Below, piece by piece: positions 56,377-56,820 of a DNA stretch of 64,000 nt. The notes below the pieces were generated by a model. The model searched no databases. It had not been told where the DNA came from and saw nothing but the letters and a program-made list of their open reading frames with translations. Source of the stretch: Paenibacillus borealis (lineage in GTDB: Bacteria > Bacillota > Bacilli > Paenibacillales > Paenibacillaceae); NCBI RefSeq assembly GCF_000758665.1, contig NZ_CP009285.1, positions 4,898,001-4,962,000 on the forward strand. Reading direction: 5' to 3'. The translations under genes were made by a program, and so were the position numbers. Each line of letters opens with the position of its first letter. Positions within the stretch are counted from its first letter, which is position 1.

Positions 56377-56562
56377 ACGTTTATGTATGTATGCTTTGCC
56401 TACGAAATAAGATACGCGCCCTCTTCTGACAATATGCCGGAAAGCGGTTACTTACTGCCTATATTTTATATATACCGCAGAATCATTTTAGTTTCAAGTA
56501 CATTCTTTATTTATTTCCTAAACTATTATTCAAATTTTATGGATTTTTCATATAAGCTATGC

Positions 56563-56732
56563 TATACTCTTGGCACAAGGAAAGGAGGTGCGTTCACATC
56601 AAGCATGACATGCTGAACGTATCCCTTACCCGGACCAACGGCTGAAGTACTGGCCCTGGTGGCGCGGGATACGGATCAAAGGTACAAACTAGCGCCTCGG
56701 GTAGAGAGACCGTCTTCGGACGGTCTTTTTTT
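56563..56732 (+). ncRNA. Putative stand-alone structured small RNA
   Basis: An extended -10 (TG-C-TATACT, TATACT at 56563-56568) is followed ~150 nt later by a strong intrinsic terminator: AGACCGTC-TTCG-GACGGTCT (56707-56726) and seven T. Between them are CGTATCCC / GGGATACG (56618-56625 with 56666-56673), TACCCG / CGGGTA (56627-56632 with 56698-56703) and GGCGC / GCGCC (56661-56665 with 56692-56696); the second and third cross the first, as in a pseudoknot or switching RNA. A perfect AAAGGAGG (56581-56588) has no good start codon at the right distance. It matches no family that I recognise. Confidence 0.55.
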
Positions 56733-56758: not shown

Positions 56759-56820
56759 ACACAAATAACCGCTAAAGCCAGCGAACCTTAGGTCCGTCTG
56801 TATTTAGCGGTTATTTGTGT
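56759..56820. repeat. Perfect 18-bp inverted repeat
   Basis: ACACAAATAACCGCTAAA (56759-56776) and its exact reverse complement (56803-56820) enclose a 26-nt loop. It lies between the putative small RNA (plus) and the 38-codon ORF (minus), so it could end the minus transcript, though there is no T-run beyond the stem. Confidence 0.85.

Follow-up and report, generated by a model that had tools for sequence, protein, structure and literature searches.

A 64,000-nucleotide (nt) stretch of the Paenibacillus borealis genome (RefSeq assembly GCF_000758665.1, contig NZ_CP009285.1, positions 4,898,001 to 4,962,000 of the forward strand; hereafter, the window) carries on its plus strand a stand-alone structured RNA gene, at positions 56575 to 56730 of the window (the span of its covariance-model match, with putative transcript ends), which, on balance, we believe to be a free-standing RNA switch operated by the ribosome. 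Comparison with relatives shows that the gene is conserved, that its helices covary, that one of its strands (b) keeps two alternative pairing partners, and that it contains a short reading frame with a conserved stop position. Ribosome entry at a non-AUG codon, the 30S subunit as trigger, and the output and role of the switch are what we propose on that basis. The observation made in a preliminary description of this region was confirmed, and it was understated; its interpretation was supported in part.

The signals that had been reported to bracket the RNA are all in place. An extended -10 element, TGCTATACT, was read from the window sequence (TG at 56560 to 56561 and TATACT at 56563 to 56568); together with a weak proposed -35 element (TGGATT, 56540 to 56545) and a 17-nt spacer, it makes up a promoter-like sequence at 56540 to 56568, on the plus strand like all features of the RNA, and transcription probably starts near 56575. 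A simple sigma-70 consensus scan reported no promoter here (2.5 in shuffles). For comparison, we used 117 sequences, comprising L143, a more distant copy, and 116 distinct sequences picked by a pattern of Shine-Dalgarno (SD) sequence, ACAT, and c strand without N; these features are therefore present in 100% of the 116 by construction, whereas the third base of the AUH codon (AUU, AUC, or AUA) discussed below, the frame, and the stop codon were left free. In 94 of these 117 relatives, TGNTANNNT is found at most 30 nt 5' of the SD; in the remaining 23 (e.g., L113 and L137), the -10 element is TATACT without TGN spacing. The SD itself, GAAAGGAGGTG (11 nt, 56580 to 56590), is complementary to the 16S tail CACCTCCTTTC, a string present at 10 places in the own genome, and is spelled out in 116/117 relatives. 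It is followed by about 110 nt of structure and by an intrinsic terminator with a UUCG loop and a T run (56703 to 56730), found by a terminator scan and included in the covariation alignment. As a variation on this theme, L097, L100, L102, L104, L106, L107, and L142 lack the T run after the first 3' hairpin and, as judged by eye, have another hairpin soon after, the tail of which is rich in T. The RNA has a predicted minimum free energy of -63.2 kcal/mol, with a z score of -3.4 (1 of 200 dinucleotide shuffles was equally good). The earlier proposal of a stand-alone structured RNA with pseudoknot-type pairing was supported.

Three long complementary pairings, two of them crossing the first, had been noticed, and this arrangement was recovered. 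Strand b, CGUAUCCC (56618 to 56625), can pair with strand c, GGGAUACG (56666 to 56673), which is located in the loop of helix P3; the resulting pseudoknot (PK) crosses both P1 (UACCCG, 56627 to 56632, with CGGGUA, 56698 to 56703) and P3 (GGCGC, 56661 to 56665, with GCGCC, 56692 to 56696), while hairpin P2 (ACCAAcGGCU, 56634 to 56643, with GGCCCUGGU, 56652 to 56660) is nested. A further helix, P0, is formed by 56587 to 56596, holding the 3' part of the SD, and 56614 to 56623; b is common to P0 and PK. Compensatory changes, the check suggested at the outset, were sought in alignment A3, consisting of 49 diverse sequences fitted to covariance model R1, the structure of which contains P0 to P3 and the terminator and lacks PK. 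With this P0-containing structure, 18 pairs vary on both sides, yielding 180 such cells versus 58 ± 9 in shuffled alignments, and 93% of pairs are formed versus 29 to 49% for slid structures; with PK replacing P0, 96.2% are paired, and 189 cells with changes on both sides were counted versus 60 ± 9. All nine pairs of P2 show covariation, P1 is likewise borne out by the covariation alignment, and P3 is invariant in A3 and neutral in this respect. PK is fully paired in all 49 rows, including one pair that is U-A in 37 rows, C-G in 11, and U-G in 1. Overall, the covariation speaks for P1 and P2 as well as for the crossing helix. Regarding the composition of the alignments, A1 took 49 of 59 rows, without L031 (masked run), L032 (terminator pattern unmet), L056 to L059 (5' motif missing), and four duplicates; A2 was made without L109 to L111; and A3 lacks six members of A2, namely, the degenerate or oddly ended L091, L105, and L108 and the near-duplicates L002, L096, and L119.

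The sharing of b between two helices lends support to the earlier suggestion that the SD might be hidden or exposed by competing pairings. In the larger set, all eight PK pairs are intact in 116/117 sequences, none of the 115 scored (those with the GGTGCG spelling) has lost any of the six outer pairs of P0, and the variants of b are transitions. Two spellings of P0 occur: ATG is followed by TTG in all 62 sequences that have GTCAAC and by CTG (33), TTG (21), or TCG (1) in those that have GTTCA, a split that is expected if the base concerned is bulged with GTTCA and paired with A in GTCAAC. By these comparisons, b keeps both pairing options, with the SD side or with GGGAUACG, in nearly all variants. 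Predicted folds pair at least four of the five GGAGG bases in 117/117 isolated 5' regions and in 116/116 longer stretches. For the window sequence, the junction and terminator were calculated at -37.5 kcal/mol, or -52.1 kcal/mol with long P0 (which adds -14.6), compared to -11.9 kcal/mol for the b/c duplex and -20.4 kcal/mol for the SD/16S tail duplex; from these predicted values, we infer that the SD-hidden fold and the PK fold may be comparable and that a bound 30S subunit could outcompete P0.

Two other readings of this architecture have to be considered. Strand c (within GCGGGAUACGG) could be the seed of a trans-acting, base-pairing small RNA, hidden in cis by b, with the open reading frame (ORF) only gating its exposure; the near invariance of c, its position in the P3 loop, and the stand-alone gene with its own terminator would fit this, but pairing with b already explains the conservation of c, and the P3 loop is partly paired in the predicted ground state, so that we regard this option as improbable. 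Alternatively, a metabolite or protein might bind the three-way junction and thereby expose the SD, as in a riboswitch without a downstream gene. The junction and pseudoknot do resemble a riboswitch, with a fold that competes with the SD; however, few unpaired bases are conserved in the wider set (mainly a G after c and an A before GCGCC), no conserved gene lies downstream, and this explanation strikes us as very unlikely.

The ribosome-operated switch that we favor relies on a reading frame that the preliminary description had missed, as it saw no usable start codon behind the SD. A possible start, AUC, is located at 56598 to 56600, 9 nt past GGAGG, and opens a micro-ORF of 15 codons, IKHDMLNVSLTRTNG, with its TGA stop at 56643 to 56645 (56598 to 56645 in total), a frame that is open in all 116 distinct sequences. 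Its length is 15 codons in 44, 16 in 30, and 17 in 42 of these, and it ends with TAA (88 sequences), TGA (26), or TAG (2). Where it ends is conserved: among 106 distinct P2 hairpins (L224 was excluded from this test due to a spelling change), the stop codon of this frame falls within the middle third of P2 in all 106, whereas the +1 and +2 frames have a stop there in 19 and 1, respectively, and shuffled hairpins in 16.7 ± 3.7 (maximum, 30). By eye, the frame of L143, which stems from another family, likewise ends in P2. We consider this comparison strong evidence that ribosomes read the frame.

The evidence for entry at the AUH codon is weaker than that for the frame. The codon is ATC in 57 sequences, ATT in 52, ATA in 7, and ATG in none, and its distance to GGAGG is 9 nt in 114/116 and 8 nt in 2/116, in line with the SD spacing of 7.8 ± 2.0 nt (range, 5 to 13) given for Paenibacillus riograndensis genes (PMC5670726). 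Thus, the sequence hallmarks of an infC-type AUH start, i.e., a conserved AUU, AUC, or AUA at proper SD spacing, were found in 116/116 sequences. In Staphylococcus aureus, extended SDs accompany the AUA starts of infC and ccpN and the AUU start of cvfC1, and reporter expression from AUA and AUU starts was about 10% of that from AUG, with up to 30% for ccpN (PMC13009471). Because of the spacing, the fact that AU is never followed by G, the 3 nt that L128 has inserted in frame between its AUH codon and ATG, and the S. aureus precedent, we favor entry at AUH. The 11-residue reading from the ATG at 56610 that had been put forward is disfavored: this ATG, codon 5 of the same frame, is 21 nt away from GGAGG (24 nt in L128), and the comparison favors the frame of 15 to 17 codons from, presumably, AUC, AUU, or AUA. 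This ATG may have been kept for its pairing with ACAU. Two further candidates were discarded, one being the ATG ACA TGC TGA frame, the stop codon of which is lost in L055, and the other a GTG inside the SD, which was ruled out by eye on account of frame ends varying among relatives. In the own genome, GAAAGGAGGTG followed by ATH within 4 to 10 nt occurs at two places (one for a backward pattern control), the second of which (L260) reads as an ordinary ATG gene. The infC gene of this genome (L257, G000:C1:1725777 region) has an apparent ATT start, assigned by eye, after GGAGGTG (GGAGGTGGAGT). Besides infC, a second IF3-like gene is present (L258, G000:C1:7998320-7998520; IF3_N, 61.5 bits), with a GTG start by eye.

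A conserved frame raises the possibility that the RNA is simply the mRNA of a functional micropeptide, IxxxMLNVSLTR, with RNA folds merely regulating its synthesis. Besides the frame, the MLNVSLTR core is similar across the 116 sequences; however, it coincides with paired RNA (b and P1), its residue changes (V to A, S/F, L to F, and R to Q) track the pairing, and residues 2 to 4 and the tail vary widely. At the codon level, GTA becomes GCG as c goes from A to G, and CTT to TTT and CGG to CAA changes also go with pairing. Frame and stop position are conserved, then, with little conservation of the peptide beyond RNA pairing as far as the aligned sequences can tell, and a micropeptide mRNA seems unlikely to us; it is rather the reading than the product that would matter. 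A type I toxin was also discarded, as the peptide is not hydrophobic by eye, although no search for an antisense RNA was made. The two options proposed earlier, a regulatory RNA or the leader of a short peptide, look like a single object. The conserved frame, which would argue against an SD that does not direct translation, as in a STAB-SD, bears on yet another explanation, namely, that the SD only parks a 30S subunit against RNase J1, with pairing and ORF as by-products. A long SD starting about 5 nt from the putative 5' end and the STAB-SD precedent (PMC4113751) speak for such a passive role, to which we nevertheless give hardly any credence.

For the ribosome-operated switch, we envisage the following course of events. 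In the ground state, as suggested by predicted energies, b (CGUAUCCC) would bury the 5'-end SD in hairpin P0. Binding of a 30S subunit to the SD, with entry at AUH instead of AUG, would open P0 and leave b free to form its duplex with c (GGGAUACG), which is part of the P3 loop. The frame spans b, the 3' side of P0, and the 5' strand of each of P1 and P2, with c and the two matching 3' strands lying outside; translation of its 15 to 17 codons would strip b and these 5' strands and end in the P2 loop. The fold would be set by ribosome loading and passage and not by the peptide, and every round of translation would reset the RNA. Since AUH starts are weak, loading should depend on the supply of 30S subunits and on discrimination by IF3. 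The output might be an altered half-life, with a 30S subunit docked near the 5' end in a STAB-SD-like manner (PMC4113751), the masking versus exposure of c, acting in trans, or both.

Several points weigh against this scenario. First, neither a downstream gene nor a target (no search for targets was made) accounts for the output. Second, the 116 sequences are related and do not represent 116 independent events, and the absence of AUG is a plain count over them. Codons 2 to 4 are free of stops in all sequences, but shuffled columns lead one to expect 1.6 stops among the 41 distinct 9-mers, 15% of column shuffles give none, and stops are equally missing from this part in the +1 frame; as proof of AUH entry, stop avoidance is too weak. 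On the structural side, further pair types are not clearly above shuffles (their number was reached in 62/500 with P0 and 117/500 with PK), L232 has one PK mismatch, 27/49 rows leave two positions of P0 unpaired when a single register is imposed on it, the two-register reading of P0 was made post hoc, after the fixed register had failed, and the energies given above exclude the cost of pseudoknot formation.

A more specific and rather doubtful version of the ribosome-operated switch would make it a dedicated sensor of translation initiation, its fold (and hence its stability or trans-activity) reporting free 30S subunits and IF3 stringency by way of an AUH start coupled to the 11-nt SD, while the ORF, as a dummy, would reset the structure each round. 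If our reading is right, this is an RNA family in which selection on translation concerns position instead of product. It would also provide a natural and compact reporter for initiation, covering SD strength, the discrimination of AUH, and IF3, and an example of refolding driven by ribosomes where no gene is attached. To our knowledge, such refolding is known mainly from leaders preceding genes.

The open-access literature, searched without supplements, yielded no report of this RNA, but several known systems share parts of it. With the AUH-started S. aureus genes infC, ccpN, and cvfC1, it has in common a very long SD and an AUU or AUA start that is kept among relatives, along with low initiation, which was reported for those genes; these, however, encode proteins, whereas here a frame of 15 to 17 codons lies inside a structured stand-alone RNA (PMC13009471). 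The STAB-SD of cry3A mRNA, also Gram-positive, is an SD near the 5' end able to bind 30S subunits (both presumed for our RNA) (PMC4113751); the SD described here is followed by a conserved frame. In the odc1 (upstream ORF-type) motif, too, a conserved RNA with a pseudoknot overlaps a frame, of about 11 codons, that is translated, with translation in our case suggested by comparison; that motif is a cis element 5' of a gene in alphaproteobacteria, whereas no gene follows here (PMC8632094). Dual-function small RNAs such as Bacillus subtilis SR1 are similarly stand-alone RNAs with an ORF, but SR1P is a functional protein and targets of SR1 are known, while the peptide here is poorly conserved (PMC8501984). 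Transcriptome sequencing of P. riograndensis listed 77 intergenic transcripts, 27 of which were taken as small RNAs (PMC5670726), and the present RNA may be among them, unrecognized.

BLASTN matches were found in 59/100 genomes of the genus, the own genome included, 55 of which have a complete 5' part, while those in G007, G069, and G070 resemble chance or terminator matches and G016 retains the 3' half only. Covariance model R1 matched 161/394 genomes of the family (6/19 genera), and R2 matched 138/392 genomes of the order (7/49 genera), including two (G410 and G513) in a second family, as well as 29/398 in a class-wide draw, all within the window's own family; searches of more than 40 genomes use stricter filters, and matches may have been missed. 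Each matching genome has a single model match except G202 and G390, in which second, weak matches were seen (L110 and L111; E values, 1e-4 and 4e-4). Among the 95 stretches with named carriers, the genera are Paenibacillus, Cohnella, and Saccharibacillus, and a single record bears the label Bacillus sp. FJAT-27264. Degenerate copies in G016 (L056/L091) and G186 (L108) keep the 3' half and have lost the SD and/or the 5' part, and L109 (G225) is probably another, judged only from a weak score and a missing 5' motif. Conservation is beyond chance by these comparisons. The relics without SD (L091 and L108, and probably L109) hint at lineages that can do without the gene. Searches of viral contigs (by exact pattern) and of plasmids and phages (by blastn) gave no match, and a mobile or phage element was ruled out.

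As to family membership, the view that this is neither a T-box nor a known family held up. At the gathering threshold, the only Rfam 15 match in the whole window was a nearby tRNA-Pro on the other strand, and no plus-strand match was found between 56200 and 57250 at an E value of ≤10; if right, we are dealing with an RNA family of Paenibacillus, Cohnella, and Saccharibacillus that is absent from Rfam 15. From T-box leaders, it differs despite a superficial GGTGG..GCGG resemblance: no Rfam T-box model matched, no gene is downstream, and the AGGGTGGNACCGCG core was not seen by eye in the sequence. The statement that no gene follows also agrees with the ORF list for 52 to 62 kb, which, read by eye, holds no plausible plus-strand gene downstream of the RNA, the plus-strand ORFs there overlapping opposite-strand genes. 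Adjacent to the RNA, on the other strand, is trmD (Pfam confirmed), near what we take to be rimM, a KH protein gene, rpsP, and ffh. Within the genus, trmD follows the RNA, on the opposite strand, in 53/55 complete copies (exceptions, L030 and L037); at 40 further loci, L091 and 39 in other genera, the genes that neighbor the RNA in the window are absent save for one match in L091. Large ORFs close to these loci lie on either strand and vary by lineage, close relatives having them in common. Because neighboring genes differ between lineages, the RNA is best seen as a gene of its own, and a leader (T-box or riboswitch) was ruled out given that no conserved gene is downstream and that neighbors and strands vary. 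Finally, a perfect 17-bp inverted repeat (56760 to 56776 and 56803 to 56819) between the RNA and trmD is possibly an opposite-strand terminator.
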